A program made the translations under genes and the position numbers. A DNA stretch of 43,309 nt from a virus: positions 1 through 43,309 of IMG/VR virus record IMGVR_UViG_3300012170_000002, one strand, 5' to 3'. Of the stretch, positions 629-30,939 are shown piece by piece. The first letter of the stretch is position 1. Every line of letters begins with the position of its first letter. The notes beneath the pieces are model-generated. The model saw nothing but the letters and a program-made list of their open reading frames with translations. It was not told the DNA's origin and ran no database searches.

Positions 629-3600
629 ATGCAAAGTAAAACAGAACAAACGCAAATAAATATACCTGAAAAAGAGTCTCTTGAACCACCAGAGCAAAAG
701 GTTAAATCAAAGGATAAAGACATTAATTCTCAAAATAGCTTTCTGCAAGAGCAAAATGATGAGCCCCCTTTAATGGATTTTTCGTATGCGCTGAGGGTAT
801 ATGATTACAATATTGCTGATGTAAAGCAAGACGAACTTCGCACAAAGGTTACGTATGCAATGCCTTCTCCTAAGCAATTTGCAGAGAATAATCCCAGGCT
901 CGCTAATGATGAAGAAGCCTTTAATACCATGTATTCTATAATAGAGGATAAATGGAGGCTTTATAAAGATGGCGATTTTTCTCAATGGTCAACAGAGGAT
1001 ATTTATGTTCCTGATAATAAGTATGGCGATTATTTAAAAAGAAAAACAGGCCAGAATTATCCTTCATTCATCCAGTATGATGATCCAAAACCTGTGTCAC
1101 AAACAAGCCGACGCTTCCCTGGTATTGGTACTGTAGAAATTGCCACTGCGGATGAGGTAGCAGATAAGACTCCTTTTATAAAAGATAAAGAAGGAAGGGT
1201 TCTCCCTGTTGATTATGAAAACCTCGAAACACAATATTTCAATGATTTTAAGCGTGTGCAAAACCTTGAGAAAGGCATCGATTTTTTTTGGCAAGAAGCG
1301 AAAGATGGAGAACGCATTGCCGGAGACAAAATAAGAAGTGCATTAGGTCCACGACATCTTGAGAGTTCATGGTATAAAGCTATACCGCGTGGATTGTGGT
1401 CAGGAACAGCACCAATGATGGTTAGAGGTAGCGGTCAGTTTATTGAGGTTATTGGCGATCTTATCGATCCTTCTGATCAGGATAAGTGGTCAGACCGTGT
1501 TGGCACAAACAGTTTAAATTGGGCAAATAAATACTCTAAACAGAATTACGATGAAATGGAAGGAGCTTTTAATAACTGGAGTTCTTTCAGGTATCAGGTA
1601 ATGAATGGTATAGGCCAAATTTCGTCTACAGTACTTCTGAACTATGCTACCGGTGGCATGTTCAGTTCTTTAGGATTATCCACTCAGCTTTCAGGAAAAA
1701 TAGCGAAGCATTTTGGAATGTCTTTTATGGCGGCAGAAGCTGCAGGAGCCTTCAGGGAAGAGGCGAAAAATCTTGGAATTGGAGAGTTTGATTCTGCTCT
1801 ATTGTTTCCGCTTATCATGGCAGCAACTTACGCTTCTGAAAGAGTAATACCCGCAGACTGGGAGCATCAAGGATTCAGTCGTTACACAAAACGCAATCTT
1901 AGAAAGACTATTAATAATGAATTTAAAGAATACGCGAAAACGACAGGGATTCCTATTACTTCTATAGGGAAAAATGGAAAAGAAACGCTTATCAAAAGAT
2001 CTTTAAATAAATGGAAGGAAGGCTTTAAAAATTGGGGTCCAAAAAGTGGCGTTTCAAGAAGTTTTCTTGGTGCTTTTGATGAAAGTCTTGAGGAAATTGG
2101 AGAAGGGTACATGCATTCAGGAATTAAAGACCTGTATAACTTATATGCAGATGCAGAAGCATCAGAAACTCTTAACAGGTATAATGAGTCTTCATGGAAA
2201 GAGTCAGATAATCCTGATAAAATGATTGAAATATTATCCGATGGATCTGAAGTTGAAATTCCTAAAAAAGAATATGAGGCTATTCAAAAAGATATAGAGC
2301 TTTCCACAAAAATTAAGAATAAAGAAGGCGGGATGTTTGACGACACTTCGGTTAACTTTGAAGAAGGGGCGATAGCTGGAATATCTTCACTGCTAACGGG
2401 ATTACCAATCAATTTAATGCAACAAAGGAAGGAAGATAATTCTGAGAATAAATTTATTGAACTTGCTTTGGCGCTTGAAAACGGAGATATTAAAGATAAG
2501 GATCTTGACGCTGCAATTAAAGAGGCAAAAAAAGATGGGGTATTGGGCTCTAAAGTAGCAACTGAAAACGGCGATGTCGTTAATGTTAAAGGAACAACTA
2601 AAGATGGGCAACCAGCCGAAACTCAAGCCAATCAATCCAAAAGAATTGTCAGGGAATCAATTGGGGTATTCCGTGATATTATTAAGCGTTACGGTATTAA
2701 CTCAGCCGAAGTACTGAAAGCAACCATGGGCGATAAATCTGTTATCAAGGAAGCAACAAAAATAGCCCGTAAACTTGATGAAGCTAAGAAAGCTCTTGAA
2801 GCTTTAGAAGTAGACCCTTCTATTTTCACAGAAGAAGACAGTCAAAAATATAATTCAGTTGAAGAAAAAACAAAGAAACTTGAAGCGGATGTTGAAAGGT
2901 ATTCTAAAAAGTTTGCAGATGCTACACAGCCTAAGGAAGGTGGCAAATATTCCAAGACTTATTCGTCATTATATTTTGAATCAGCACAGGTATTTTATGG
3001 AGCAGAAAAAAAACTCAAAAAGAAAATACTTGACAAAGATTTTGATGGGAAAAAATATGAAAATCTTACTCTTGAAGAGAGGGATAAATACAAAAAGAAA
3101 CTGAATAAACAACGTAAGGATCTAGTAGAAACGCAACGTCCTCAAATTCTTCAGGATATTTATCAATTTCAAGCTTTAAGATCTGCTTCTGGAGAAGAGG
3201 TTCATAAACAAACCCAAGCGCTTTTTGATGAAGTAGCGGAGAATTATTTAAAAGAAGAAGAGCGAGTTCTTAAATCAACTCAAGATCGTTTTGACAAATC
3301 TATATTGTCCGATGAAAAAAGGGAAAGTGTAGATAAAGCGATAACTGATTTAGAAAAACAAGTCGGAGAAATAGCCAATTATAAAGAGGGTAGCGAAGTA
3401 TCTCTTTCTGAAAAGTTTGAAAGTACCAAAAAAAGTTATCGGAAAATTCAAAACTTCATTGCAGATGTTGAAATCGGTGCTCTTCATGGTGATGCAAAAG
3501 CACAGCAATGGTTAGGTGAACTCGAAGGAATGAGGGCTCAAAGTGAAGCAGCTGTTGATCAAGCTCTCGGCAATCTTAACGATATGTTTGGCGAAGTCAA

Positions 3601-6600
3601 TGAAGCGAATAAAGTTGATCCTGAATTATTAGATGCTGATAGAGAAGTTGCTAGTGGGAATACTGAATTATTTAATCGTTTAAGGAATAAGCGTGGCAAA
3701 AGCATAGAAAATTTAACAGTGGAAGAACAGCTTGAGGTGCTTAATCAAATAATAGAAAAGCATCCTGTTTTTCTTGATGAGAAGAAAGAAGATCCAAGTA
3801 CGCTTGAAAGCGTATTTAGAAAATACAAGGAAATGATGGATAACAAGGTTGCAGTTATGAATCCTGCATCTATGGAAAAACATCTTGAACAGATTAAAGC
3901 GGTCCTTACTACTTTGCGCAATCAGTTTGAAATGAATGTTGAACTGATGCAAAATGATATTGAAGCAAATGAAAATACAGCAGAGCACTCACCGCTTCGT
4001 GATAAACCATATCAAAGGATAGATCAAGGAACCAGACCGGTCCTAAACAAAGAAGAATCAATTTCGGAAGGCGAATCTAACTATACTCAGATTATAGAAA
4101 AAATTGATAACTATCTTAATACCGTAAAAGACGTAAAAGAATATGTAGCGCAAACAAAATCTTCTCGTGATTCTTACAAAGTAAAAGCTAAGTCTTTACA
4201 CCTCGGGGCAAGAGTATTTGCTCTTAATGGATTTATGGAGATTGATTCAAAACTGAACATTAAAGAGCTTGATGATATTGAGAAAGTGCTTAACGAGCAC
4301 AATGTCAAAACGATAAACGAACTTCTTTACCTTTTCTCTAAAAGCAAAAAAGAAAAGCAAGAAGAAATACAAGGAGCAATAACAAAAATTGAAAGACTTA
4401 TTGTTCAGGCTGAAACTTTTCTTGAAGGAAAGATGGATAATGTGCTGAAAGAATTAGCGGAAGGCGCAACCACTTTTACTGCGCTTAAAGATTTTGTTTA
4501 CGGATCGGCTATTTCGCCAAATGAAAACTCAGGGCTTTTAAGTGAATCAAATTTAGAAGTTGGAAAGAAAGACTTTAATTCAGAGAATAAGAACACAGAC
4601 CTTGGAGAGCTTTATCAATACATAATGATAAGCAAAGCATTGCAGATTAATCGCTTTGGAGGAAAAGATTTCTCAAAGGAGGATCTTTATGCTATATATC
4701 GTGACATGCTTTCAGAGAAAGAGCAAAAAGGATCTGATGAATTTGTTCCAAACTACGAGCAAGAGCAGGCCTTAATGGAAATCGTTTCTTTCTTGTTTGA
4801 TCCGAAGTTTGATTCTTTTAAGAATTTCCTTAGTGAAGATGAACATGATACAATGATTAGAAACGGGCTTTATGTCCGTGGCTTTGCTGGCACGGGGAAG
4901 ACAACTATTGTACTTAAAAATTCTATTCAACTTCTTAGTAAGTTAAAAGGCCGGGGAGTTAAAGTAACAATAGTATCTCCTAATCATAACCTTCAATCAA
5001 ATATCGATAAAGATCTTCAAGATGTTTCAGAGATTGAAACGTCGAATAACATTCTTCTTAGTGAATTTCTTGAAGGAAAGGCAAGTATTGATCCAGATTC
5101 TGATATCGTTATTTTTGATGAAATAAGCGTTATTACAAGAGATCAATCTAATATCATCAAAGATAAACTTAACAATTCTCAAATACCTTCATTATTTCTT
5201 GGGGATGATAACCAGGTTTCTGACTTATCATATACTGACGATCAAGGAGCTGTACTTACTCCAAAGATGCCAATCATGGAGAAAACACAGCGCACTATTC
5301 CAATGACTGAGGTTTATCGTTCAGGAGTTAGTGATCTTCATTATATACAGGATTATTATCGTAACCTTAGAACCACCGCTTCTGAAGGCGATCGCACCGA
5401 TCTTCCAATAACTTCTTTTTCCGGAGAAGGAGCATCTATGAAAGGCGTTCGCTACATGGAAACTACTCAAGAAATTGAAGAGGCATTCATGGATTACATG
5501 AAAAATAATCCAAATGCTCCTGTAACAGAAGTTATGCTAATTGTAAAAAATAAAGCTGAGCGTGACGAGTTTTTGAGGAAACATCCTGAATATGAAAACC
5601 ATGTAAGAACAGTTGAATTTATTATTGGGAATGAAGAAAATGCGATATCAGGAATAGCTTCTAGGCATGTTTTCTTTGCTACCAATCCAGTTGTTACAAG
5701 TACTCCAAATGGAATTGTCACAGAGTCTCGGATAGGGCTGACAGGGGTTAGTCGTGCGTCTGAATCTCTTGTCATGATAGGGAAAGTTTCAAAGTCTAAA
5801 AAAACTGATAAAGTTCCTGAAAGTGAGAGTATAAATACAGAAGAAATTTCAGAGATAAGACAGGAAGAAATCAGAAGACTTCATGAAATTACTTCTAAAA
5901 AAGCTCCCGGAAATAAAACGGACAACGAGGATAATGAAATAGATTCTAAATCAGACTTCCGATCAATTAATTTAACTGAAGATGGGAAGAATCAGGTAAT
6001 CGTTGAATCGGAAGAAAAAATTAATGAGTTAAAAAACAAAGGAGTCAGTGCTTTAAAAGATCTTAATTCCGAAGATCCAACACTTACTCATATTACTGAA
6101 TCATTATTTGAAAAAACAGGTAATGAAAATGCCAATACCCGTTCGAGAAATTCTATGGTTAAGGCTGCATTGCTTTATAATTTCAACTCAAGTGAAACAA
6201 ACGAAAAAGCTTTCAGGGAAAGGATTCAAGAATACTTTGAAGCCACTGAAACAAAATATACAGAGGACGAACTTTTCAGTATTCTCTCTAATTCACTTTT
6301 TGCTTCTAAGGAAATTTTAGATATTCTTGATGAAGACCTAACATTGGTTAATCTTCCTTTTGTTTCCGGAGATAAAATTGCTATGCCGGCTATAGTTAAA
6401 ATTGTAGGTTACAGCAACGGGCAGCCGGTGGTTGACGTGTACGATTTTAGAATAACAAGTGGAAAATCTATCACTAAACTGTCTGAATACGATAAGAAAA
6501 AACTTGCTGCTTATGCAGATATTTTAAGAGCGAATGGCCTTAAAATAAATAACCTTAAAATATCAAATATTGTAGAGACATTTGAAAAGAAGGGTGATTC

Positions 6601-9600
6601 TGTTTCGCTTGAATATTTTTACGGTAAAACATTGAAGCTCGATTCGGAAGAAGCTATTAGCCTCATGTCATTTGAGAATGAAAATGAAGCGAATGAAACG
6701 TTTGTTGGGCAAGAAGAGTTTTTTGAAAACGAAAGATCTTTAACAGAGAACAAAGGATTTAAGCTTGGACAACTCATTCAGGATAAAGATTCTCTTATAT
6801 TTCATAAACTTCACGGTATTACTTCAAAAAGAATTGAAGGAAAGATTGTTACTCAATACCATATTGAGACAGAGAATGGAAATATTAAGGCTGTCAACCA
6901 ATCAGAATTTGAGAGTCAATATCAGGTTCCAAATACCGAAGATCCTGTAACGCGTTTTAAAACCACTGCTGAAGACTTTGAAAATGGAGTGGACACAAAT
7001 ACCACAAATACCTTTTTCGTTACTGATGCTGAAGCTGTGAAGATTCTCGGGGAGAATTCGAGCTCAGTTCCAGTAGAAGATTTTTATAACCCTGATAAGA
7101 ATGTTGTCTATGCAAGGAAAATGTTACTTGTTAAATACTTTTACCCTGGAGTTAGAGTAACAAAAGAATACCGTGATGGTGGCAAGGTGTTCGGAATGAA
7201 GAATGGTCAAATGTCACGATTTGAATATGACGGCAAAATAGCCATTAATCGTATGTCTGAAAAAGACATTGATAAAGCTTTAGATTTATTCAATTCTTAT
7301 GGAGAAGAAATAACAAAGCAGGAATTCATTGATCAGGGATTGGATATTGTTTCGGCAGATTTTGAGCCTGAGTTTAATTTTGGTGCTGTTGATAAAACCA
7401 ATACTGAAGGAAAGGTACGATCAATTCAGCCTAAAGCATACAACACTTACATGGAAGAAACAGACGATTCAAAGGCAGAAGCCCTTTTGGATAAAATGTT
7501 TGAAAATGCTTTTGACAATGATGATAATTTGGCAACCAGAGAAGCACTGATTGAAATGAATAAAGAGCGTATGCGAAGACTACGTTCAGAAGAAAAGGTT
7601 GAATCTGTTGTTAATTCTGTTGAGCCCGGAAAAATAATTCGTGTATTTGATGATTTTATTCCTATTAAGAACCTGATTGATAAACTTGTCAAAAAAAGGC
7701 AGGTTATTGAAGCGAAAGATCAAGATAATATGTATGTCATTTCTGAATCTAAAAGACAGAAAAACGGCAAATGGCGTAATACAATTACAATTAAGCTTGA
7801 TGGTGTTGGGGAGTTAACTTTTCTTATTGATCGGAAAATTGTTAAAAACAATAAAGACCTTGATTATTTCCTTCAGGATTTATCTGAGGTAGAAGATTTG
7901 ATTAAAGCATATGAAGAAAATTTTAAGGATCTTTCTAATAAAGAAAAGGCTGATTTATTCAAAGAGGTTGAAGAATCCGTTTTATTCCGTTTTGTGAAAA
8001 CCAATGCTAATATACTGAATAATTATAAAGATCAGTTACCATTAAGGTTTAACGATAAAGGAGTTAGCATAAAAGGAAGTACTCCACTTCAAAAGATTAA
8101 ATCTCTTAAAAGTATTGCGAAATTTATTTCTTCAGCAATAGCTAATAACAGTATTGATCAGTATTTCCGTTATCCTGCAAAAAATAAGAGTGGTAAAATT
8201 GATATAGCACATTTTGAATCTATTGTTCATGATGTTACGCAACCAAACTTAAATCTTGAGTTTAATCGTATAAGCAAAAGTGCTCCAAAAGAACAAGAAA
8301 CAAAAAAGCATGAGCCCGTTAAGCCAGAAAGCATATCATCATTAGATCTTAGTAGCAGAACAAGTCTTACGATTGATGATATTAATAACAATTCTGTTGA
8401 AGATATTGTAAGTGCTTTTGAAACTATTGGAGCCACAATAGATGAATTCGAAGCTGAAATTCTTTCTGAGGCCAAAAAGGGTGATGCAGATATGAATGAG
8501 ATTCTTGAAGCATTAAATCAAAAACTAAGCGATGATGAAGAGTATCCTAAGTTAGTATCAACAGAGAATAAGCTTTCTTTTGTTTCTCTTGAAAAAGCCA
8601 GGGAAACACTCAGAAGTATTATTGGTGATTTAACCGATACAAATGTCTTTTTCCATAATGGATATTTGTATACTAAAGATGGTCAGCGTGCACTTGGCCT
8701 TACCCGTGATGCATTAATAAAGCTTGCTATGCTGGATGGGAAAACATCTTCTCAAACAGTTCGACATGAAGCAATGCACTTCATCATTAATAATATGGTG
8801 AAGCCCGGACAACGTAAAAAAATATTAGAAACAGCACGTAAAGAAATGGAGGATAACGGAGAAAAAATAAATTCCGAAAGCGATATCCATGAATATATTT
8901 CAAAGCTTTATGAGAACTCCGAAAACATAAAATTTAAAAATCTACTTCAAAGATTCATTATGTGGTTAAAGAAAGTAGCTAATCAATTCGGAGCATATCA
9001 TTACACTTTTGACGAAATTTTATATCTCGCAGATCAGGGATATTTTAAAGATCGTCATGCATTATCATCTAACGAAAACACCTTTTACAAAGTTGAAAAT
9101 GAGCATAATAGCGAGGAAAGTATTAAGTATCTTGAATCAAGAATAGGTGATGTTCAGCTTGTGGATTGGGTGAAGAACAATATTTTTATACCTGAATTTA
9201 TTGAGCAATCACCATTTGGCAGAGGCTTAAACGAAAACAAAACAGTTGGAGAAGCTCTTCTTGCTCTTTATAACAAGTACGATAGTATTGATGAGAAAAC
9301 TCGTGAAAAACTTAGCAGGGTACTGGATAGAGACGGAAGCTTAAACTTTGAGAAAATCAAGAGAATGTTTAATACTCCATTAGGAAGGAAATATTTGAAA
9401 AGAGATATTTACCCTGTATTACTCAGTGACAAAAAGATTTTTGCTTCAATGACACAAATTGCTTTAGGTCGCGTAAACTTAAATGCGCTTGTGGATTTCA
9501 AGAGAAAAAAAGCCTTGGATAGTGAAAGTGTTAGTGGAGCTTCAGGACAAAAACTTGTAGAAGCTGAAAGCTTTGATCCTAACCTTTCACGTTCTGAGTT

Positions 9601-12600: not shown

Positions 12601-15600
12601 AATTGACAGGGCAGCCAATGATACAGATATAAGAAAGTTAATTGATGATCAGATGGTTGGTTATATTTTGTTTGAATCTGCTGTAAAATCAGGGAAAAGA
12701 AAAATAATAGATTTTGATGTGCCTATAGGAGAAATGCTAACACTTCAAAATGTATCAATAAATAAAAGCTTAAACAATGAAAAGAACAGGATTAAGATAA
12801 ATAATGACGCTTATAAAATTCAGACTGTTACAAAGCAAGATGTGATTGAAGCTGAAAAAGTTATCCCTACTCAGATTCTTAGTGTTATCGGTGGCTTAGA
12901 TAACGAAACAAATGAGACAATTGTAAAGGAAGTAAACCATGGATTAGCCGGTACTGCAAATATTATTCGAGAGAAACTTGTTTCTATGAGTTCAGGCAAA
13001 AGCATAGAGTACATGAAAGAGTTGTTGCATTATACTGCAATGAAGCGTGGAGATACAGGAAAAGCAGGGCGGGTATCTGCATGGGCAAGTCCTGATGTTT
13101 CAAGAAATAAAGCTATTGCTGCTTTTCTTACCGCAGTGAATAAATATATAAAACCAAATATGGCCGGACAGTCTTTTGTTCAAGCTCCGGACCTTGGTAA
13201 TATGTATTTTGATAAAGACGGGAATGCATACTTGCCTTCTGATCTTGATCTTGATGATGATTCTCAAAATGTTGATGGTAAAGTAAGGCGGCCATTAAAG
13301 CCAATACTTTTTATAGTAGAAGGCAAAGAAACAAAAACTGACGGCACTTTATTCACAAAAGAAGAGCTTATTGAAGCTCAAAAGGCAGGGAAAAAAGTTG
13401 AGATTAAACCTGCTGAAGTGATTGCTCCTTTTGGCTACATGAAAGTATTCGGAATTACTCGTAACACTACGCTTCGTGATGTTATGAGTGTAGTCATAAA
13501 TGGCAAGGAAGTGAAATTTGATAATGCAAATCCTGAATATAAAGACGTTCAGAATAAAGTCAATAAAGCTTTTGAAGGAATGGAACTGGACGGCATACTT
13601 GATTCCTTCCATCCTGATATCAGAACAGAAATTATCAGAAGGTTTACACAGTCTATTCGTGTTAATGATAAATATGATCTGCTTGATACTATTCAAGAAA
13701 GCAATCCGAAACTATACAAAGAAATCGATAAGCAATTAAAAACTCTTGATGAAGAAGGAATTCCTGGAGAAGGTAGCAAGGCTTTTGGTTTAATGATGAA
13801 CGTGATATCCAATTATTATTATAACCTGAATAAAGCTTTAAACGTATTTGGGGTCCGTATTCCTACGACCAACGCATCTTCAGGGTGGGTCGGTCGTATT
13901 GTAGCTTTTGACTATGAAAGCGAAAATACAGTATATACTTCTGCAGAAAAGAACATTCTTGACGGTTCTGATTACGATATTGACCAAGTTTCTATGTATT
14001 TCCTTTCTCTTGATGAATGGGGAAATGAAATAACTCCTGATTCAGTCATTAAAGAAAGAATGAAGGCTGAGAAAAAAGCACATAAAGAAACAGGTAAACT
14101 AAAAGAGAAAGCAGAAGATCCGAATTCAATTGATGAAATAGATGCAGATTATTCAAAGGCAGAAAAATTTGATACTAAATATAATGGGAATATGATATTC
14201 ACTGCTTTGCAAAAGTTTTATCGTGAGTCCGGAAATATCGAAATGATTCTTGAAGAAATTAATCTTGATAGTTTCCGTGATAAAGCGGACCTTGTTCCTC
14301 AGGAATGGCAGGAATTTGTTTCTGATATTAGTTCTAACATGAAAGCTTCAGAGATTAATCTCTCAGGGCAAAAGCTTGTAGGGCACTTTCAAAACCTTGA
14401 AAAGTTTACGCTTAAATTGTTAGCAATTCCAAAAGCCACAAGGGATCAAATATTGCCTCCTGAAAAGTTTAAAATGTTTTCAGGTAATAAGGCTATTTCT
14501 GAGCAGATCGCTTTTGTTGCAAAGCTTATTAATGCCGCTACCGATAACGCCAAAGAAGGTGGACTTCTCGGTAGACTGAATATTACAGAATCAACTTCAC
14601 CTATTGTGAATGGAATGGTGATGGCCGGTCTTTCAGAAAAAGAAATACTAGATATTTTACAGAATGAAACAATTTTAAATGCTTCTAAAAAGAGCATGAC
14701 ATCTAAGTCTATTACCGGGTATAATGATAATGGAGTTCCTGAAAACGCACAATATAAAATAATTCCTATATGGGAAGCCATAAGTGAATATATATCAGGA
14801 GATTATTTTGATACTCCCACACACCAAATAAAAGATGAAAAAGATCGCTTTCTCGTTCAAATTCGTGAGTATGCATATATGGGAGAGCAATTGCGGAGAT
14901 TTGGAAACATTACTAATATTCAACAGGAGATTAGTATTGAAAATTCTAAGCGAAATAATGTAATCAATAGTATTAATGAAGCCATTGGAACCACTGATGC
15001 AGATGAATATATTCAGCGCAGGCTTGCAGGAGAATCTACAACTGGAATTATGAATATTCCTACTGACGGGCATGAGTCAAATATTAGAAAACAATTTAAT
15101 ATTGGTGATGCAATGATGGAAAACGAAATGCTTTATACACATGTAAGAACACTTGCTCAGGTACAAAAAACAATTAATGAATCTATTACTACAGATAAGG
15201 TTATTAATAAAGCCAAAGGAACAATTGAAAAACGTCTTGGGCAAAGCATTAATATTCCTGTTGTTTATGAAACGATAGAACGTGGTATTGAAGATTATAT
15301 TGTCGGCCAGTTTATTGCTGATAATTTTAAAGAAGTAACGGTTGGAGATCAGGCTTATGACTTATCGTTAGCAAAAAATAGGGTAAGATTTAGTATGGAT
15401 TTCCCTTTATTTATTGAGGAATATACTTTTAACTGGTATAAAAATGCACCAAAAGGGAAGAAGAATAATACTTTCTTGAGAAGGGTTAAGCAGCGTAGTA
15501 CAAAGTCCGGCTACCTTTATCTTGATTTTTCTTCATCTAATGATGTGAACGATACCCATAAAAAACTGTACCGAGATCATTTTGAGATAATTGATGAAAG

Positions 15601-18600
15601 TGTTAAAAATGCTTTTAGAGCGTATCAGTTATTAATGAATGGGTTCCGTTATAAGAATGGGTCTATGATTGATTTTACGGATGAAAAAGCAGAACGCCAA
15701 TACACAAATTGGATTCAATCTTTTGATCCGGAAAAGATAAATGAAAACGATCTTGCTGAGCAGGTTATTCTTCGCAATAAGGAACTTGTTCATTATGCAG
15801 CGGACACCGAAAAACTTATGAAAAAGTTGAAAAAGAATGATATCATTACGTCATTGATTTATTATACGCCAAAAAAGGCATCTTTCAACCCACACATTTA
15901 TAAGTTTGATATTAAAAAAGGAACTAAAGAGTATCTTAACAGTCCTTATCCTACATTGATAAACACGTATTCTGCTAAATCTGAAACAACAAATCTGCCT
16001 GTTATTGACGCTCTTTCCAGCAAGGAAATGAGAACGTTTAAGAATAATGATTCTGTTATAATCAAATCATATTTTCCTATAGTTGTATGGCACCAAAAAA
16101 ACAACGACTACCCTTACTCATTATCAAACAAGGATCAAGCTGTGCTTCAAGATGGAACTGTTGGAAATGTGGAAATTGTCGGTCCTAAACATAAAAAAGA
16201 CAATCTAACAAATACAAGTATAATAAAATTCACTAAGGCAAATAAGCCTCAAGCTTCAAGGATATCTAAAAATCAAAGTAAAGCTTCATACTATGTTTTA
16301 AAGTCATTCATGGATAAGTTACAAAAAGCTTTTCCAAATATCCGCATTAATTATGTGAATAACATTACGAGCAAACATCCTGAATTGATAGGGTATTTTG
16401 AGAACGGACAGGTCTTTTTCAATACAGATAAATTGCAGCTTGACACGCCTATTCACGAGATTACTCACGTGTTCATTGACATACTTGAAAGTGCAAATCA
16501 TGAACTGTATCGTGCTCTTGAAAATGAAGCTATAACTTTAATTGAAAGTAATCATGAGGTCGTTCAGGAAATCCTTAAAGAATATGCAGATATTTCAAAA
16601 GTGGATCTTGTTAAGGAAGTTATTGCAACTATGGCCGGATGGAATAGCCAGGAAGCCGTCAGAAATCTTTTAGACAAGACTCCGGGCATGAACTCTGATC
16701 AAAAAGCAAGTACGCTATATGGCAAAATTTCGGCCCTTGTCAATCGTTTTTATACATGGTTGAAGAATGCGGTTTATGGCGCGTTAGGTGTTCAGCAAAT
16801 AAACAGTAGAACATTAAAGGATTTCGATTTTAAAAATGCTACTATTAAATCATTCGCTGAAATGATGGTTAATGCTGTTAATAACGGACAGGTTCTATCG
16901 TATGTGTCCTCAAAGCAAATGAGTAATATAGCCAAGGCTGACGTTTATGCTTCAAAAATTAAAACGATTTATGATGTAAAGAAGATGGCCAAGGTGCTTA
17001 CGAACCCAAGTGACAGGTTTGATTTCGAGGAAATGTCAACTGATGCTAAGGTCGATTATGTTTACAATCTTATTGATACTAATACAGGTAAAATCGGGGC
17101 TGGTCTAACTGGAACAGAATATAATTTCAAAGGAATGACAGTAGATGAAATCAAATCTACTATTCGTAAAAAGGTTATTACTGAATACGAAACTCGTGAT
17201 AATAAATTTAAAGCGAAAATAAGTAACTGGATTAATGAACATGAAGCTTCTGTGCATGATTCTATAGAAACTTTTGGAAAAACTAGTAACGATATTCCTA
17301 TTTATAAGGTTCCTATTCTCAAAAAGTTTAAAAAGCAGATTGAATATGCTTCATTTAAAGAGTTTGGAAGAGTTTCTGAGCTTGAAAAAATGGAAGGTGG
17401 AGAAGAGATTGCGAAGCATTTGTCAAAAAGTATCCGAAGTTTCGATCCCCATATTTCAATAGAGAAAACGTCTGACGGTTCAATTTACGTGTCGCTTTAT
17501 GATATTACCATGGACAATATCGACAGGCCGGATATAGAAAATGAGCTTGGCAATATTGCTTCTCGATTTTTAACGGATAGAGAAGCTAAAAAAATGGGTC
17601 TGTCTATGACAAATAACCCAGGTGATGTTCGTCAGCTAATGCTTGTTTTAATGGCAAACAAACTAATGAATGCTAATCCTAATATTAAGATTAAGGAGGC
17701 AGGAGTTATCAGTCTTAAGCCTTCAGGTAGCCAAATGAAAATGATTGATTTTTTAAAGGTTAATAAGAACATTAGTGTATTGTCTCAAATAGATGATTTT
17801 ATAAATAGTTTGAGTCCGGAATTAAAAGAATTGTTTAAGCAGGAATTAAAAATTCCAAAAGTAGATTATGAAAAGCTTCTAAATAATTTTTATGAAAATG
17901 CAGCCGATAACTCGTTCCCTAAATATATAAAAATGCTATTTCAGAATCCTGAAAATTATACTGTTATACAGAAAAAGAACCTGTTAATGGCAAGACTCAG
18001 ATATGCGCTTGAAAATAATGACGAAACAAATAATTATCGTCAGGAAATTAATCTGCTTACGCAGACGTTACTTGATCTTAAGACGGTAAATGTGGTTGAC
18101 ACTGAAATGAATAGTGAGGATATGTCACTGCTTAGTGATATTGATAAATTCATTCAACCCGGACAATATATTGCCAATGATATCATTCAGGCTTTACGTG
18201 AAATAACCCTGGACACTTCCAATAAAATTGTTGAAGAAGTTCAGGAATTTCAATCTGAATTTAAGCCTATTCAAAAATGGTTTGAGAGTAGAAATAGTGG
18301 TATTTCAATAGGTTTTGGAGATAAGTCTCACAGGTTTTTCAAAGATTTATTTGTAAAACGTGACATTGACGGTTCTGGAAACGAAGTTTTTACTGGTGAA
18401 ATATTCTGGACTACTGATGAAACAAAAGATCCTGTTAACGCAAAAAAAGCAAAAGAACTTGGTCTTTCTGCAGAACTATTGGAACAGGGAGAAAAACTTG
18501 TGAATATGATTACGGATCAATATATCGACCTTGTTTATCATTATCATGAAATGCAAGGATATATGAAAAATCTTAAAACTGGTAAGCCTAATTATAATTT

Positions 18601-20446
18601 TACAAAGAAAGACGCTTATGAGTCGTTAATGCAAAATTCTTCATATCAGAAAGGGATGCTTCCTTTAATGACAAAAACTTCTGAACAATTATTTAATGAA
18701 GGAGAATTAGGGAAGTCTAGTAAAAAACGGCTGAGTCAGATTACTAACAACATGAACATGTTTGATGATGCAAATGATCTTTCAAAAACTGACGTGAAAG
18801 AAATAAATAAGCTTTCTGATCAATTCTTTAATCAAATTGGGTACATGCGTGAAGGCAGTAACACAAAGTTTGGTAGCCATGCAAGAACTTTTGATATTCT
18901 TGGAATTGGGAAAAATTCAAAAGGAGAAATTGTTCTTGACAGTCAGGAGAAAAACAACAATATCACTACTGATATTGAAACAATTATGAATTATTTTGCC
19001 ATGAGTTCTAAGCGAAAGATTCATTATGAAAACGATGTGCTACCTATAATCAATGGAGCAAAAGTTTTTATGACAGATATGAAAAATCATAAAGATAAAA
19101 ATCTGAGTAATGAAATTGATTATGTGGAAATGTTTACGGAAATGTCTATTCGCGGACAACGCCGTAACCTTGGTGGTGATATTGGAGGAGTAGAGCTACA
19201 ACCAACAATTAGTACACTTTCAACTGTTGGTGGTACAATTGCGCTTTTCGGTAATGTGAATGTTGGTGTTGTATCATCATTAATTAATGGAATGCACTCG
19301 TTCGTGGAAGGAATAGCGAACCAGTTTGTTGAACGTGGGATATTTAACTTTTCGGATCTTATCAAAGCAAACAGGTTAATATTCAGCGAATGGGGGAAGA
19401 TGTCTGAGCTTTGTAAGATGTATCAGAATATTTCAATGAGTGAATGGGAATTAATTTCACATCCTCAAAATATGAGCAAAACGAAAAAAGGACAGATTCT
19501 TTCAAGGTATTGGGGTCATATGTTTAACTATGCTTCTGACTATTATGGTCGTAATCTGGTAATGATTGCTCAAATGGTGCATGATGGAACCTGGGATGCT
19601 CATGAATTTGATAGCGAAACAGGGAAGATTAATTACAATCGGAAAAAAGACAAGCGTTTTTATGATGAAAACGGACAAATGACTGAAGACGGAAATGTAC
19701 TGTATGAAACAATTCGTAATCAAGTTTATAAAGATGGATTCAAAGGACAGAAAAAAGAAGGAGAACTTGTAAGGGCTTATACCCGTAAAGAATCGAGGAA
19801 GTTTAAAAATATTTCTGATATGTTTGTTGTGGGAGCTTATACGGATAAAGAAAAAGTCATGTTGACTCACTATACACTTGGCCGCTTCTTCGCTGTATTC
19901 CGTAATTACTTATTTACACACGTCCAAAATGCAGTAATGAAAGGTCATTATATTGGTGATGTTGGAAGGTACAAAGTGAAAAAGGATGCTCATGGCAAGC
20001 CTATGGCTGAATGGGAAAGACTTTACATGGAAGGATGGGTCAGAACAGCAACACGAATGATTGGCGATGTGGTTAAAACAAGAAGTCTTGACAACTTTAA
20101 GAATATGAGCGAATCTGAGAAATACAACTGGTTAAGAATTGCATCAAAAACATTGATGGTTCTTGGTGTTTCTATGCTTTACAACATGTCTGTGAAAGAC
20201 GATGATGATGATAAAACAGGTTTCGTTCCGGATTGGAGAATCCTTCGAAACATAAAATATTCTTATGCCGGTGTGTTTGCCTTGTTTGATAGTGGAATTA
20301 TCTCAAGTCCTTTTGCAATTATTTCTGTATTTAAACGAATACTTACTAATCCTATAGGAGAATTTGAAGTTGAAAATATTCAAAGATTTGCTCCGGGATA
20401 TACAACAATAGAAACACTTTATGAACCAATTAAAAATGAAGAATAA
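629..20446 (+). CDS. Giant 6605-aa multidomain virion-type protein: SF1 helicase, two zincins, DxDxD RNA polymerase core
   Basis: This single open frame covers 46% of the window. Visible in order: a polar N-terminus; hydrophobic helical segments around residues 255-275, 325-400 and 573-600; long charged coiled-coil stretches at 600-1370; an SF1 helicase at about 1370-1720; a possible RecB-like nuclease fold at 1870-1990; a zincin with HEAMH at 2713-2717; charged helices around 3720-3800; an RNA polymerase-like region at about 3900-4700 with D4448, D4450, D4452; a second zincin with HEITH at 5276-5280; and hydrophobic C-terminal segments at about 6190-6240, 6500-6520 and 6545-6575. Phage polyvalent proteins and the RNA polymerase proteins of crAss-like phages combine such domains and are thought to be packaged and injected. 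I infer the same role here: early transcription and DNA handling right after entry, possibly with self-cleavage. The stop TAA shares its last A with the next start. Confidence 0.93.
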   Translation: MQSKTEQTQINIPEKESLEPPEQKVKSKDKDINSQNSFLQEQNDEPPLMDFSYALRVYDYNIADVKQDELRTKVTYAMPSPKQFAENNPRLANDEEAFNTMYSIIEDKWRLYKDGDFSQWSTEDIYVPDNKYGDYLKRKTGQNYPSFIQYDDPKPVSQTSRRFPGIGTVEIATADEVADKTPFIKDKEGRVLPVDYENLETQYFNDFKRVQNLEKGIDFFWQEAKDGERIAGDKIRSALGPRHLESSWYKAIPRGLWSGTAPMMVRGSGQFIEVIGDLIDPSDQDKWSDRVGTNSLNWANKYSKQNYDEMEGAFNNWSSFRYQVMNGIGQISSTVLLNYATGGMFSSLGLSTQLSGKIAKHFGMSFMAAEAAGAFREEAKNLGIGEFDSALLFPLIMAATYASERVIPADWEHQGFSRYTKRNLRKTINNEFKEYAKTTGIPITSIGKNGKETLIKRSLNKWKEGFKNWGPKSGVSRSFLGAFDESLEEIGEGYMHSGIKDLYNLYADAEASETLNRYNESSWKESDNPDKMIEILSDGSEVEIPKKEYEAIQKDIELSTKIKNKEGGMFDDTSVNFEEGAIAGISSLLTGLPINLMQQRKEDNSENKFIELALALENGDIKDKDLDAAIKEAKKDGVLGSKVATENGDVVNVKGTTKDGQPAETQANQSKRIVRESIGVFRDIIKRYGINSAEVLKATMGDKSVIKEATKIARKLDEAKKALEALEVDPSIFTEEDSQKYNSVEEKTKKLEADVERYSKKFADATQPKEGGKYSKTYSSLYFESAQVFYGAEKKLKKKILDKDFDGKKYENLTLEERDKYKKKLNKQRKDLVETQRPQILQDIYQFQALRSASGEEVHKQTQALFDEVAENYLKEEERVLKSTQDRFDKSILSDEKRESVDKAITDLEKQVGEIANYKEGSEVSLSEKFESTKKSYRKIQNFIADVEIGALHGDAKAQQWLGELEGMRAQSEAAVDQALGNLNDMFGEVNEANKVDPELLDADREVASGNTELFNRLRNKRGKSIENLTVEEQLEVLNQIIEKHPVFLDEKKEDPSTLESVFRKYKEMMDNKVAVMNPASMEKHLEQIKAVLTTLRNQFEMNVELMQNDIEANENTAEHSPLRDKPYQRIDQGTRPVLNKEESISEGESNYTQIIEKIDNYLNTVKDVKEYVAQTKSSRDSYKVKAKSLHLGARVFALNGFMEIDSKLNIKELDDIEKVLNEHNVKTINELLYLFSKSKKEKQEEIQGAITKIERLIVQAETFLEGKMDNVLKELAEGATTFTALKDFVYGSAISPNENSGLLSESNLEVGKKDFNSENKNTDLGELYQYIMISKALQINRFGGKDFSKEDLYAIYRDMLSEKEQKGSDEFVPNYEQEQALMEIVSFLFDPKFDSFKNFLSEDEHDTMIRNGLYVRGFAGTGKTTIVLKNSIQLLSKLKGRGVKVTIVSPNHNLQSNIDKDLQDVSEIETSNNILLSEFLEGKASIDPDSDIVIFDEISVITRDQSNIIKDKLNNSQIPSLFLGDDNQVSDLSYTDDQGAVLTPKMPIMEKTQRTIPMTEVYRSGVSDLHYIQDYYRNLRTTASEGDRTDLPITSFSGEGASMKGVRYMETTQEIEEAFMDYMKNNPNAPVTEVMLIVKNKAERDEFLRKHPEYENHVRTVEFIIGNEENAISGIASRHVFFATNPVVTSTPNGIVTESRIGLTGVSRASESLVMIGKVSKSKKTDKVPESESINTEEISEIRQEEIRRLHEITSKKAPGNKTDNEDNEIDSKSDFRSINLTEDGKNQVIVESEEKINELKNKGVSALKDLNSEDPTLTHITESLFEKTGNENANTRSRNSMVKAALLYNFNSSETNEKAFRERIQEYFEATETKYTEDELFSILSNSLFASKEILDILDEDLTLVNLPFVSGDKIAMPAIVKIVGYSNGQPVVDVYDFRITSGKSITKLSEYDKKKLAAYADILRANGLKINNLKISNIVETFEKKGDSVSLEYFYGKTLKLDSEEAISLMSFENENEANETFVGQEEFFENERSLTENKGFKLGQLIQDKDSLIFHKLHGITSKRIEGKIVTQYHIETENGNIKAVNQSEFESQYQVPNTEDPVTRFKTTAEDFENGVDTNTTNTFFVTDAEAVKILGENSSSVPVEDFYNPDKNVVYARKMLLVKYFYPGVRVTKEYRDGGKVFGMKNGQMSRFEYDGKIAINRMSEKDIDKALDLFNSYGEEITKQEFIDQGLDIVSADFEPEFNFGAVDKTNTEGKVRSIQPKAYNTYMEETDDSKAEALLDKMFENAFDNDDNLATREALIEMNKERMRRLRSEEKVESVVNSVEPGKIIRVFDDFIPIKNLIDKLVKKRQVIEAKDQDNMYVISESKRQKNGKWRNTITIKLDGVGELTFLIDRKIVKNNKDLDYFLQDLSEVEDLIKAYEENFKDLSNKEKADLFKEVEESVLFRFVKTNANILNNYKDQLPLRFNDKGVSIKGSTPLQKIKSLKSIAKFISSAIANNSIDQYFRYPAKNKSGKIDIAHFESIVHDVTQPNLNLEFNRISKSAPKEQETKKHEPVKPESISSLDLSSRTSLTIDDINNNSVEDIVSAFETIGATIDEFEAEILSEAKKGDADMNEILEALNQKLSDDEEYPKLVSTENKLSFVSLEKARETLRSIIGDLTDTNVFFHNGYLYTKDGQRALGLTRDALIKLAMLDGKTSSQTVRHEAMHFIINNMVKPGQRKKILETARKEMEDNGEKINSESDIHEYISKLYENSENIKFKNLLQRFIMWLKKVANQFGAYHYTFDEILYLADQGYFKDRHALSSNENTFYKVENEHNSEESIKYLESRIGDVQLVDWVKNNIFIPEFIEQSPFGRGLNENKTVGEALLALYNKYDSIDEKTREKLSRVLDRDGSLNFEKIKRMFNTPLGRKYLKRDIYPVLLSDKKIFASMTQIALGRVNLNALVDFKRKKALDSESVSGASGQKLVEAESFDPNLSRSEFQKMLLQSIPIYDEGKKAKVEYNGNIVYYANPNTMDHILIDAANRLKQMGKRHFTDQEFFDMLEKMKNETDKSKYKTLIYSFMSTFGNKKFADSEGNADLNFRMQNNGYQALAEDEQVSLEKRKRYRDIVSGFISYYSSLGNVSLALVNLTEKQSWEVKSSADDKVMKAYIRESMKTHFIGQGGFLNKDVSEVFDSANQKNLSVTKEGIFFNGKLYIKGDIKKQSPMAISIILNNLKLNKKGIFTQRIIEELNKEVIGQSSEKGNKNWSMSLGQYLHAITAGLQARVLVDKEYTKHFDNGGKARDLKFSKETKAALDLAKSLYQKASIQWDSVEQNTNRTSERSGVPDLPSPADFYMYYEYIGNLMKQYNADIGTRMIVNSEGNFEYSHPLSSNLYDAAMGGSRSLIAHVSDLSKKDYVSNLPRKIKNENIDPVSPIIGNNGYNNPILANVISVDPIQKFDGIKTFLRSGGIDKMTDKDFAKVIIEELTYKQIIKGGNESVLPSLYGTLADKKNRSVFNVVSERNPIFFKSFAEGYDFLEELGVNYTGLANSIDLFVNYYEKTNNLALGRWNNVLGKNFKSTESLQKYIEEGLSAAETKVIINQLTEKKDYFEKFNPETRTIKITGLGNSIITEDSNIIYKPSFIAEWRKTNTIKDLIKRGRKQQELLEKATLESRQQFAEWIADSGYKMTSKMTDLFKQFGYNMESGEQISDMIEKHIEELREKEKKRKEIGYKIGERKKIEAEIDKLRGTEKKEALKEAEENLEQFDQQFKNLNEMYGTLKKEIKAIQQKHTKESRKIRKQIIENKYQSEGNQIHPLIDIAFWNFHVLNESMDQIVRGSQTNYANLTDFIKRGSSLTGPGTHVDTSRKDGVGKTANTLILRDIPGLQKQFSEKFEEELHTDGLSIVNPIWAEMLKRSAGQEFGNVHNGMLKPMIFDYNPVTDDLIYAKLSQMPINNRQFRNNKIFKQMFEMMVGEELMPYFMEEYENNGQDIRKASTALIDRAANDTDIRKLIDDQMVGYILFESAVKSGKRKIIDFDVPIGEMLTLQNVSINKSLNNEKNRIKINNDAYKIQTVTKQDVIEAEKVIPTQILSVIGGLDNETNETIVKEVNHGLAGTANIIREKLVSMSSGKSIEYMKELLHYTAMKRGDTGKAGRVSAWASPDVSRNKAIAAFLTAVNKYIKPNMAGQSFVQAPDLGNMYFDKDGNAYLPSDLDLDDDSQNVDGKVRRPLKPILFIVEGKETKTDGTLFTKEELIEAQKAGKKVEIKPAEVIAPFGYMKVFGITRNTTLRDVMSVVINGKEVKFDNANPEYKDVQNKVNKAFEGMELDGILDSFHPDIRTEIIRRFTQSIRVNDKYDLLDTIQESNPKLYKEIDKQLKTLDEEGIPGEGSKAFGLMMNVISNYYYNLNKALNVFGVRIPTTNASSGWVGRIVAFDYESENTVYTSAEKNILDGSDYDIDQVSMYFLSLDEWGNEITPDSVIKERMKAEKKAHKETGKLKEKAEDPNSIDEIDADYSKAEKFDTKYNGNMIFTALQKFYRESGNIEMILEEINLDSFRDKADLVPQEWQEFVSDISSNMKASEINLSGQKLVGHFQNLEKFTLKLLAIPKATRDQILPPEKFKMFSGNKAISEQIAFVAKLINAATDNAKEGGLLGRLNITESTSPIVNGMVMAGLSEKEILDILQNETILNASKKSMTSKSITGYNDNGVPENAQYKIIPIWEAISEYISGDYFDTPTHQIKDEKDRFLVQIREYAYMGEQLRRFGNITNIQQEISIENSKRNNVINSINEAIGTTDADEYIQRRLAGESTTGIMNIPTDGHESNIRKQFNIGDAMMENEMLYTHVRTLAQVQKTINESITTDKVINKAKGTIEKRLGQSINIPVVYETIERGIEDYIVGQFIADNFKEVTVGDQAYDLSLAKNRVRFSMDFPLFIEEYTFNWYKNAPKGKKNNTFLRRVKQRSTKSGYLYLDFSSSNDVNDTHKKLYRDHFEIIDESVKNAFRAYQLLMNGFRYKNGSMIDFTDEKAERQYTNWIQSFDPEKINENDLAEQVILRNKELVHYAADTEKLMKKLKKNDIITSLIYYTPKKASFNPHIYKFDIKKGTKEYLNSPYPTLINTYSAKSETTNLPVIDALSSKEMRTFKNNDSVIIKSYFPIVVWHQKNNDYPYSLSNKDQAVLQDGTVGNVEIVGPKHKKDNLTNTSIIKFTKANKPQASRISKNQSKASYYVLKSFMDKLQKAFPNIRINYVNNITSKHPELIGYFENGQVFFNTDKLQLDTPIHEITHVFIDILESANHELYRALENEAITLIESNHEVVQEILKEYADISKVDLVKEVIATMAGWNSQEAVRNLLDKTPGMNSDQKASTLYGKISALVNRFYTWLKNAVYGALGVQQINSRTLKDFDFKNATIKSFAEMMVNAVNNGQVLSYVSSKQMSNIAKADVYASKIKTIYDVKKMAKVLTNPSDRFDFEEMSTDAKVDYVYNLIDTNTGKIGAGLTGTEYNFKGMTVDEIKSTIRKKVITEYETRDNKFKAKISNWINEHEASVHDSIETFGKTSNDIPIYKVPILKKFKKQIEYASFKEFGRVSELEKMEGGEEIAKHLSKSIRSFDPHISIEKTSDGSIYVSLYDITMDNIDRPDIENELGNIASRFLTDREAKKMGLSMTNNPGDVRQLMLVLMANKLMNANPNIKIKEAGVISLKPSGSQMKMIDFLKVNKNISVLSQIDDFINSLSPELKELFKQELKIPKVDYEKLLNNFYENAADNSFPKYIKMLFQNPENYTVIQKKNLLMARLRYALENNDETNNYRQEINLLTQTLLDLKTVNVVDTEMNSEDMSLLSDIDKFIQPGQYIANDIIQALREITLDTSNKIVEEVQEFQSEFKPIQKWFESRNSGISIGFGDKSHRFFKDLFVKRDIDGSGNEVFTGEIFWTTDETKDPVNAKKAKELGLSAELLEQGEKLVNMITDQYIDLVYHYHEMQGYMKNLKTGKPNYNFTKKDAYESLMQNSSYQKGMLPLMTKTSEQLFNEGELGKSSKKRLSQITNNMNMFDDANDLSKTDVKEINKLSDQFFNQIGYMREGSNTKFGSHARTFDILGIGKNSKGEIVLDSQEKNNNITTDIETIMNYFAMSSKRKIHYENDVLPIINGAKVFMTDMKNHKDKNLSNEIDYVEMFTEMSIRGQRRNLGGDIGGVELQPTISTLSTVGGTIALFGNVNVGVVSSLINGMHSFVEGIANQFVERGIFNFSDLIKANRLIFSEWGKMSELCKMYQNISMSEWELISHPQNMSKTKKGQILSRYWGHMFNYASDYYGRNLVMIAQMVHDGTWDAHEFDSETGKINYNRKKDKRFYDENGQMTEDGNVLYETIRNQVYKDGFKGQKKEGELVRAYTRKESRKFKNISDMFVVGAYTDKEKVMLTHYTLGRFFAVFRNYLFTHVQNAVMKGHYIGDVGRYKVKKDAHGKPMAEWERLYMEGWVRTATRMIGDVVKTRSLDNFKNMSESEKYNWLRIASKTLMVLGVSMLYNMSVKDDDDDKTGFVPDWRILRNIKYSYAGVFALFDSGIISSPFAIISVFKRILTNPIGEFEVENIQRFAPGYTTIETLYEPIKNEE
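4736..5788 (+). other. SF1 (RecD/UvrD-like) helicase domain inside the giant protein
   Basis: Residues about 1370-1720 carry a near-complete SF1 helicase motif set. There is an upstream N-x-EQ-x-QA element. Walker A is GFAGTGKTT at 1418-1426. Walker B is VIFDE near 1493-1497. Motif III is of the LGDDNQ type near 1522. A TEVYRSG motif lies near 1556, and motif VI is GVSRASESLVMIGK near 1705. All key residues appear present, so the domain is probably active as an ATP-driven 5'-3' or 3'-5' translocase. The spacing resembles RecD/Pif1-type viral helicases. In an injected protein it could pull in or unwind incoming DNA; that role is inference. Confidence 0.85.
6236..6598 (+). other. Possible RecB-like PD-(D/E)XK nuclease fold inside the giant protein
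   Basis: Residues about 1870-1990, just after the helicase, contain a beta-strand pattern ending in VVDVYDFRIT, then a helix with KKLAAYADILRANG and another strand. RecB-family nucleases have G-x-VD-x-(I/V)-D-(F/Y)-K-T followed by a Q/Y-rich helix with the pattern LxxYxxxL. Here the usual catalytic Lys is an Arg (DFR) and the Q is absent, so the domain may be inactive or only structural. A helicase followed by a RecB-like fold is the AddAB/RecBCD arrangement. The call rests on pattern alone and needs structure prediction. Confidence 0.4.
8546..9118 (+). other. Zincin-like metallopeptidase domain 1 (HEAMH) inside the giant protein
   Basis: Residues about 2640-2830 contain FFHNGYLY, then TVRHEAMHFIINNMV with the zincin HExxH at 2713-2717. 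A helical segment with SDIHEYISKLYE follows, then FIMWLKKVANQF. HExxH gives two zinc-binding histidines and the catalytic Glu. The third ligand is probably an acidic residue in the helix about 40-60 residues downstream. Phage polyvalent proteins often contain such domains. Possible roles are cleavage of the giant protein itself, host factors or cell-wall peptides; the sequence does not decide between them. Confidence 0.7.
12326..14728 (+). other. Two-barrel (DPBB) RNA polymerase core inside the giant protein
   Basis: The signature is GSDYDIDQ at residues 4446-4453, giving three metal-binding aspartates D4448, D4450 and D4452. About 35 residues before it lies VFGVRIPTTN, matching the R-x-P-T element that precedes the NADFDGD loop of cellular beta' subunits. 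Further upstream, QSFVQAP near 4182-4190 and PAEVIAPFGY near 4262-4271 look like the first double-psi barrel, and MVGYILFESAVKSGK near 4010-4025 fits the region before it. The single-chain polymerase of crAss-like phage phi14:2 (gp66) and YonO-type enzymes use a DxDxD motif of this kind. I infer a virion-delivered polymerase for early genes. Domain limits are approximate. Confidence 0.78.
16301..16828 (+). other. Zincin-like metallopeptidase domain 2 (HEITH) inside the giant protein
   Basis: Residues about 5225-5400 show GYFENGQVFFNTD, a strand pair typical before a zincin helix, then TPIHEITHVFIDIL with HExxH at 5276-5280. A helix with KEVIATMAG about 55 residues later could supply the third ligand (E of KEVIA). 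The domain ends in VNRFYTWLKNAVYG, very like the FIMWLKKVAN that closes the first zincin. Two zincins with the same layout suggest an old internal duplication or two modules serving different cleavage events. Confidence 0.75.
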
Positions 20447-21585
20447 TGGCACATATTGATCCTACATTTATCATAGGCACAGAAGTCGAAAAAGAGAGCA
20501 AACATATTTTTGTAAGAGATCAAACTCTTAATTATGCAGAAACGCTTAATGAAGAAGATACAGGATATGCTTCAACAGAGTTTATCCGGGCAATATTTGT
20601 ATTTGAAAACAACACGATAAAGCCGTCTCTTTCTCAACTAACAGGGTTTGGTATGGAGTATCAATATCCTGTACTCAATAACAGAAGGTATAAAACCTTC
20701 ATGTATTTCATTCCAGTATATGATGATGCCCAGGAGTACCCTGTTGGAGTCATTGTATATAAAGACGGCGGTTTTTATAAGAAAATAAACAATGATGCGA
20801 TTTCTTATGAACCAGGTGAGGAGCCTGAAATAAGAGCGAGTGTCACCGACCAACCGTTATATGATGATGCCCAAATAGAGTTATGGCAGCGATTAACTAT
20901 AGATGATTTCGCTGAATTTGATGCGTGCTATACAAATGCTCAAGCAGGAAGCCTTGTTTATCCTGTTCAGTCTATTCAACAAGCAGTGTCATTTAGTAAT
21001 ACTGATTGGCAAGATTACAGCTTAAAAAAGATTGCTCCATACAGGTGGCAAATTTCAGACGATAGCAACGTTCCAGGTGCAAGAGGAATAAGAGTGCTTG
21101 ATGTTGAACAAAACGAGTTAGAGCCTGCGATTTCATTTTCTATTGAAAGTGGAGAAACCAAAGAGATAAACCTTGGAAATAATTCGGATGGAGTTTATTT
21201 AGTAAAGATATACAATGGGTCTATAGAAGAAATGAGAGACGCCGATCCGAATTCTGAAATCTTAATCGAAGAATCAACCAAGTGGCTTGTGATATATGAG
21301 TATTCAAAAGTAAATGATTATGTTCATCAAGCCATGAAAGAAGTGTATACTAAAAAGCATGAAAGCTATCAAGGTGTAATGGAGCAATACAAAAGAAGCC
21401 GTAATGTTATGAGTTCTTTCAAAATCTACTCGTTTTTTCTGACCGCAATGAGTACCATAAATTTTGAAAGGTTTGAATACATAGAGCATTACATGCTTAC
21501 TAACGACAGATATTCTGTTATTAAATTAGCAGATAAGTATATAAGAAAATCGCTTGAAATGGCGACTAACTACAAAGACGATTAA
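20446..21585 (+). CDS. Hypothetical structural-block protein, 379 aa
   Basis: The ATG overlaps the last base of the giant gene's TAA stop, so translation is probably coupled. No family is recognised. The first 250 residues look like mixed beta structure with aromatic-rich strands (GFGMEYQYPVLNN, FMYFIPVYDD). The last 100 residues are helical and charged (VNDYVHQAMKEVYTKKHESY). There is no signal peptide or membrane segment. The position, between an injected-type giant protein and a probable tail fibre gene, suggests a tail or baseplate component. This is inference from context only. Confidence 0.85.
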   Translation: MAHIDPTFIIGTEVEKESKHIFVRDQTLNYAETLNEEDTGYASTEFIRAIFVFENNTIKPSLSQLTGFGMEYQYPVLNNRRYKTFMYFIPVYDDAQEYPVGVIVYKDGGFYKKINNDAISYEPGEEPEIRASVTDQPLYDDAQIELWQRLTIDDFAEFDACYTNAQAGSLVYPVQSIQQAVSFSNTDWQDYSLKKIAPYRWQISDDSNVPGARGIRVLDVEQNELEPAISFSIESGETKEINLGNNSDGVYLVKIYNGSIEEMRDADPNSEILIEESTKWLVIYEYSKVNDYVHQAMKEVYTKKHESYQGVMEQYKRSRNVMSSFKIYSFFLTAMSTINFERFEYIEHYMLTNDRYSVIKLADKYIRKSLEMATNYKDD

Positions 21586-21586
21586 T

Positions 21587-22000: not shown

Positions 22001-22014
22001 AACCATTTACTACT

Positions 22015-29669: not shown

Positions 29670-29710
29670 TTTTAATATAAATTATCGTTAATAACTGTGG
29701 GTAACACTGT

Positions 29711-29850
29711 GTGAACTACCCACACACTAAAAAGATGTGTGGGCTTCCTGTACAACGCATAGCCTAATGGCTTACGTTAGCGTACAAAGGGTTGTCCCTA
29801 ACCCCGAAATTTTTTATATTATACGCAGCGTTAAGGTCTCTATCTATTGA
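29711..29850 (-). ncRNA. Candidate omega (reRNA) guide scaffold at the tnpB right end
   Basis: TnpB nucleases use a guide RNA made from the 3' end of the tnpB transcript and the element's right end, with the guide read from flanking DNA. Here the RE hairpin (29717-29741) and TAGTTCAC sit 3' of tnpB on the coding strand. The guide would begin at 29710 on the - strand. The 5' limit given is a guess, and no expression evidence exists. Confidence 0.4.
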
Positions 29851-30882: not shown

Positions 30883-30908
30883 ATATTATTAAATAGTCTA
30901 AACTTTTG

Positions 30909-30939
30909 TAAAAGTACAATATTTTTTATCTAAAATCAA
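30909..30939 (-). promoter_or_regulatory. Bacteroidetes-type promoter for tnpB
   Basis: On the - strand TTG (30939-30937) is followed after 20 bases by TACTTTTA (30916-30909), one base off the Bacteroidetes -7 consensus TAnnTTTG. It lies 27 bp upstream of the tnpB start. Confidence 0.5.

Follow-up and report, generated by a model that had tools for sequence, protein, structure and literature searches.

The 43,309-nt window analyzed here (IMG/VR virus record IMGVR_UViG_3300012170_000002) contains a giant open reading frame (ORF, 629-20446, plus strand) with an ATG start and 6605 codons, whose product is identified by comparative sequence analysis as an ejected transcription machine of a known type, joined throughout a phage lineage into a single chain that also includes a superfamily 1 (SF1)-type helicase. 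This protein, a fused virion RNA polymerase (RNAP) cargo, is very probably the virion RNAP system of crAss-like phages from a deep, environmental lineage, synthesized as one polypeptide.

The almost 20-kb frame without internal stops, described previously in a sequence-only reading, was borne out. The log10 probability of an open run of this length arising by chance is about -240 (stop probability of 0.080 per codon, window base composition). The frame is intact across three independently assembled contigs: it is ~99.9% identical in the 70.8-kb contig G001 and the 34.4-kb contig G002, which overlap and belong to the same phage species, and a part of it is found in contig G003 at 99.4% identity with gap-free codons. 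As the same frame occurs in separate contigs, an assembly or frameshift artefact, which the sequence-only reading had named as a ground for refutation, is excluded. Although the modules of the giant protein are separate genes in relatives, the idea that sequencing or assembly joined such genes into one long frame is refuted by the same single frame in three contigs of this phage and by single frames in six divergent phages from other datasets.

The phage carrying the giant gene is crAss-like, as judged from its structural genes. In G001, which extends the window by 25.5 kb upstream, the terminase, portal, and major capsid proteins match PHROGs 6681, 6547, and 11589 (E 8.8e-66, 1.7e-41, and 6.5e-29, respectively), and a tblastn search with the terminase yielded 146 records, mostly Crassvirales and Flavobacterium phages. 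Among the phages of the human gut, the group that includes the crAss-like phages is the most abundant; the host of the present lineage is probably a Bacteroidota bacterium. The gene order in G001 is terminase, portal, scaffold-like, capsid, ring and tail genes, a 1286-aa protein at the muzzle position, a 747-aa protein at the cargo position, and the giant; the latter thus stands at the usual position of the virion RNAP block in crAss-like phages. The window starts inside the cargo-position gene, of which the 3' end remains (3-620, plus strand). Three short late genes follow the giant gene (20446-23418, plus strand); the first and the third are recognizable beside the giant gene in G005, and the third also in G007 and G008. 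The rest of the window holds an opposing replication module (DnaB, primase, Sak4-like and SbcC-like proteins). In a midpoint-rooted tree of major capsid proteins (11 taxa) the phage forms its own clade with G005, G007, and G009 (100/100), G013 joining next, apart from the Steigviridae and Suoliviridae representatives. A tree of the terminase large subunit was discarded, as the alignment was too gappy.

Several smaller features of the contigs were seen outside the giant gene. An IS605-type OrfB/TnpB element occupies 29708-31055; the sister contig G003 lacks it and has a different TnpB element, ~1.3 kb long, past window position 29134; TnpB elements have been recently mobile in this phage species. 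About 309 bp of G001 (59151-59459) are missing at window positions 33623-33635, which alters a small minus-strand gene. The left end of G001 (2-769) encodes a tandem-repeat protein with units like STPTPQEAQTPLMVINLS.

A motif scan and three profile-guided scans revealed six divergent phages with a single open frame of the same architecture, coding for 6,550-6,846 residues: G005 (6685 aa), G007 (6810), G008 (6550), G009 (6846, with the reading continued through the 127-bp terminal repeat of its contig), G014 (6788, located in a Bacteroidetes metagenome-assembled genome, MAG), and G015 (6668). The domain order common to the fused proteins is helicase, zincin, RNAP, zincin, and C-terminal module. 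The presence of this order in one ORF in seven phages indicates a lineage-wide single-chain fusion. Pairwise identity among the seven proteins is only about 17-28%; the predicted catalytic residues are unchanged in all of them, namely K1424, E1498, D1526, Q1529, R1564, and R1709 of the helicase, H2713, E2714, H2717, and E2755 of zincin 1, D4448, D4450, and D4452 of the RNAP, and H5276, E5277, H5280, and E5330 of zincin 2, which argues for four working enzymes in the giant protein. Two side observations concern these relatives. The contig PWLM01000149.1, which carries the giant of 6,668 residues, was binned in a MAG named Bacillus sp.; it is probably mis-binned, because crAss-like phages have Bacteroidota hosts. 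The terminase large subunit of G005 (10869-14045) has an intein-looking insertion of ~420 aa (about aa 199-619); inteins have been reported for other crAss-like phages.

All motifs listed in the sequence-only reading are present where it placed them, and its assignment of a helicase, two zincins, and an RNAP core agrees with the profile and conservation data. The N-terminal module (aa ~150-600; 1076-2428, plus strand) is Gly-rich, helix-rich, and conserved in all seven fused proteins, with invariant columns RG..SG, N306, D308, E309, E485, E488, E489, and E492. Its profile matches an ORF of G013 (E 1.4e-7) and, weakly, one of G012 (E 0.008), and the module is a candidate portal or membrane channel part. 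The hydrophobic segments noted at both ends of the protein do exist, but they are only moderate (Kyte-Doolittle maxima of 1.4 at 382-400, 1.4 at 6197-6215, and 1.8 at 6549-6567) and, taken alone, unconvincing as membrane helices. The SF1-type helicase (aa ~1380-1745; 4766-5863, plus strand) scored over the Pfam cut-off with AAA_30 (1.6e-8), SLFN-g3_helicase (8e-7), and AAA_19. It contains GFAGTGKT at aa 1418, LGDDNQ at 1524, and SRASESL at about 1708, so that the expected residues follow in order: G1421, G1423, and K1424 of motif I, E1498 of motif II, G1525-D1526..Q1529 of motif III, and the arginines R1564 and R1709. A PD-(D/E)xK nuclease was suspected at about aa 1870-2010; the region is not conserved in G008, and the nuclease is therefore not claimed.

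Zincin 1 (aa ~2600-2880; 8426-9268, plus strand) carries HEAMH at aa 2713, with H2713, E2714, and H2717 and E2755 as the candidate third ligand. The RNAP core (aa ~3800-4720; 12026-14788, plus strand) has the putative catalytic D4448, D4450, and D4452 in the motif DGSDYDIDQ (nt 13970-13984) and, upstream, K4020 in ESAVKSG. Zincin 2 (aa ~5160-5420; 16106-16888, plus strand) carries HEITH at aa 5276, with H5276, E5277, H5280, and E5330. Finally, the C-terminal module (aa ~6100-6605; 18926-20443, plus strand) belongs to the crAss "RNAP subunit" family (phi14:2 gp076, cr111_1 gp034). In shuffled versions of the giant protein at least one HExxH was found in 185 of 2000 sequences and two in 18, the loop G..G.GK[ST] in 35, and GSD[FY]D[ILV]D in none. 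A single HExxH is thus possible by chance at such length, and the reality of the motifs is settled by their conservation in the six divergent relatives.

The RNAP assignment is supported by profile comparison: hhalign of four fused RNAPs against six known crAss-like RNAPs, that of Cellulophaga phage phi14:2 included, gave a probability of 99.2% (E 2.3e-19) across 688 columns, and the catalytic sites coincide. D4448, D4450, and D4452 align with TGSDFDIDK. A hidden Markov model built from known crAss-like RNAPs matches the core at 1.3e-5 (best decoy 1.6), and by this homology the enzyme would be of the two-barrel crAss type. Iterated-search E-values are circular and were left out of the evidence in favor of decoy-controlled profile runs. 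In these, the profile of the phi14:2 family matches the C-terminal module at 5.6e-19, and a known-family profile matches the zincin 2 region at 6.2e-8. The profile of the seven fused proteins also picks up numerous RNAPs and, in every group, the C-terminal module. A tblastn search with the C-terminal module identified the "putative RNA-polymerase subunit" of cr111_1, and also MT835470.1. The seven-sequence profile of zincin 1 matches proteins from the RNAP block of gut crassviruses: the Kehishuvirus RNAP subunit WEU69768 (1.8e-15), cr53_1 gp57 (4.2e-12), and cr60_1 gp27 (2.1e-9; best decoy 0.1), and that of zincin 2 matches G013 (3.3e-22), a Leptolyngbya phage (3.2e-13), and MT835470.1 (9.6e-13; best decoy 2.1). 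No profile link was found between zincin 2 and phi14:2 gp076 (E 18), though the latter has HExxH at the matching place.

Tblastn searches with aa 1-2000 and 1801-3800 gave no matches among phage records, and in profile searches aa ~600-1380, 1760-2600, 2880-3750, and 5400-6100 had no or weak relatives beyond the fused lineage and the phages closest to it. Sequence searches of the PDB with the RNAP region returned nothing useful, and the AlphaFold model of aa 3700-4800 (four sequences; mean pLDDT 39), too low in confidence to show the two double-psi beta-barrels known from the phi14:2 RNAP (PDB 6VR4), was not used. The model of zincin 2 (pLDDT 75) has the order helix, three strands, HExxH helix, and Glu helix, described as the core of phage zincins (PMC5512222). 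Foldseek with this model detected no significant match in the PDB and one moderate match in BFVD, a phage protein (E 6.5e-5). A zincin fold of zincin 2 is thus suggested by the predicted structure but not by a PDB match.

Relatives make the same RNAP machinery as two to five separate proteins. In MT835470.1 (an unannotated human-gut phage) and the IMG/VR records G011 and G012, the helicase, RNAP, zincin 2, and C-terminal modules follow the order of the giant but occupy separate neighboring ORFs, and the helicases of the unfused relatives align with the fused one at an hhalign probability of 96.7% (reversed control 0.1%). G013 encodes a 4420-aa fusion with a separate C-terminal module. In MT835470.1 (13991-24830, minus strand) the RNAP is split by ~1 kb right at the DxDxD motif, whereas that of the giant is unsplit; the interruption is intron-like. 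The giant proteins of G011 and G012 contain in-frame TGA, and their frames are open under code 4; these phages appear to read TGA as sense.

Among the known systems, one of the closest counterparts is the virion RNAP block of Cellulophaga phage phi14:2, reportedly described by Drobysheva et al. in 2021. Its gp078-gp077-gp076 occupy the same place after the cargo genes and are annotated as virion proteins by MS/MS; they are three proteins (1797, 2180, and 1421 aa), in contrast to the one of 6605 aa here. The RNAP, gp077, has the site GSDFDID and is homologous to the giant core over about 690 columns, gp076 is homologous to the C-terminal module, and in gp078 neither a helicase nor HExxH was found. 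For phi14:2, packing of the RNAP in the capsid, its ejection, and its host-independent transcription of the early genes are reported to have been shown (PMC10136315). Mass spectrometry of Phi-crAss001 virions detected three RNAP-associated proteins (gp47, gp49, and gp50; 262.5, 154.5, and 276.9 kDa; Bayfield et al., 2023, PMC10172136), their combined ~694 kDa being near the mass of the giant. In Kehishuvirus and Phi-crAss001 the genes are separate, and no helicase was found; in Kehishuvirus, whose first RNAP subunit has a zincin 1 homolog (HEAFH) near the C-terminus, they lie on opposite strands. Partial fusions are also known: cr53_1 gp57 (4645 aa) and cr60_1 gp27 (4494 aa) of Suoliviridae combine zincin 1 and RNAP in one chain, like the giant, and gp32 of Flavobacterium phage Fpv3 (4287 aa) combines RNAP and an HExxH at the place of zincin 2; unlike in the giant, the C-terminal module is a separate gene in all three phages. 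TAG is read as sense in cr53_1 and cr60_1. No helicase was detected in the RNAP block of phi14:2, Kehishuvirus, cr111_1, Fpv3, cr53_1, or cr60_1. The 2748-aa protein of a cyanophage, Leptolyngbya phage Lbo-JY46 (PP438436.1, 62354-70600), combines the zincin 2 and C-terminal modules with a GNAT domain, and the crAss RNAP block system may reach beyond the phages of Bacteroidota.

The suggestion of a packaged and injected machine is supported by homology and gene position, and we infer virion location, ejection, and early transcription from the relatives phi14:2 and crAss001. The giant would be produced late, stored in the capsid, and ejected via the portal and tail ahead of or together with the DNA; with 6,550-6,846 residues, the chain must traverse the tail at least partly unfolded. 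The RNAP core would then transcribe early genes without the host RNAP, the helicase most likely cooperating with it on the incoming template by unwinding or translocating on DNA, and the zincins most likely processing the giant into modules equal to the separate proteins of relatives or cutting host proteins. Proteolytic maturation and the exact job of the helicase are conjectural. Large multidomain polyvalent proteins, with zincins and other enzymes, similarly enter the host with phage DNA (Iyer et al., 2017, PMC5512222).

Comparison of gene boundaries makes self-cutting plausible. The giant could be an autoproteolytic polyprotein, cut by one or both zincins close to its module borders (around aa 2880-3000, 5100-5180, and 5430) into subunits equal to the separate proteins of other crassviruses, a possibility whose chances we put a little short of even. 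The zincin 2 ORF of unfused relatives ends 144-163 aa past the HExxH start, corresponding to aa ~5420-5440 here (ORF end and HExxH start at 804 and 644 in MT835_B, 4420 and 4257 in G013, 1121 and 977 in G011, and 1225 and 1072 in G012). Recurring in four relatives, this border marks a natural edge of the module and makes aa ~5430 of the giant a candidate site of processing; in phi14:2 and cr53_1 a gene border precedes zincin 2 instead. The invariance of HExxH and the distal Glu and the zincin processing proposed for multidomain phage proteins (Iyer et al., PMC5512222) also agree with self-cutting, but zincins are present in unfused proteins too, where it is less needed. The zincins could, alternatively, cut host proteins involved in defense or the envelope after ejection, the giant itself working uncut. 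Injected polyvalent proteins commonly have zincins as effector domains (PMC5512222), and two different ones are conserved here; however, the gene borders that recur next to zincin 2 agree at least equally well with processing, so this option is somewhat doubtful, and we lean slightly toward self-processing.

As for the helicase, it could be an entry motor drawing the genome into the cell, after which transcription by the RNAP would finish the entry, in line with the machine of the sequence-only reading, which pulls in DNA and transcribes it. The helicase is intact, is placed toward the N-terminus, the side that may leave first, and comes after the Gly-rich module that could face the membrane. 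A general precedent for a virion RNAP in DNA entry is that of phage N4, also a large protein entering the host with DNA; it is a single-subunit T7-type polymerase, in contrast to the two-barrel crAss type predicted here. However, phi14:2, Kehishuvirus, cr111_1, cr53_1, cr60_1, and Fpv3 manage entry although no helicase is detectable in their block, and promoter unwinding is equally possible, so that a role as entry motor seems unlikely. Still less probable is the full combination, in which the ejected ~750-kDa chain would be an integrated entry-and-expression machine, the N-terminal module helping to cross the envelope, the helicase feeding DNA to the RNAP, and the zincins timing the cutting into subunits, with the fusion kept over deep divergence.

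Machines of this kind are already known; the motor and the two protease-like domains fused with it are unusual. Proteins of 6,550-6,846 residues are among the largest of phages, but giant RNAPs reaching about 6000 aa have been published as a hallmark of the crAss-like group (PMC10136315), and size alone is therefore less exceptional than the sequence-only reading held. To judge by the literature searched, three features are new: the whole machine in one chain, the persistence of this form throughout a deep lineage, and the helicase fused to it, although Yutin et al. may already depict in their figures a helicase within the transcription block of Zeta phages. The virion transcription machine that crAss-like phages build from several proteins thus occurs in a separate lineage as a single chain, in which a helicase and two zincins have a fixed order. 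The fusion reveals which crAss cargo proteins share one machine, stored at equal copy number, marks the RNAP-associated helicase as a part of this machine, and offers a direct test of zincin-driven maturation.
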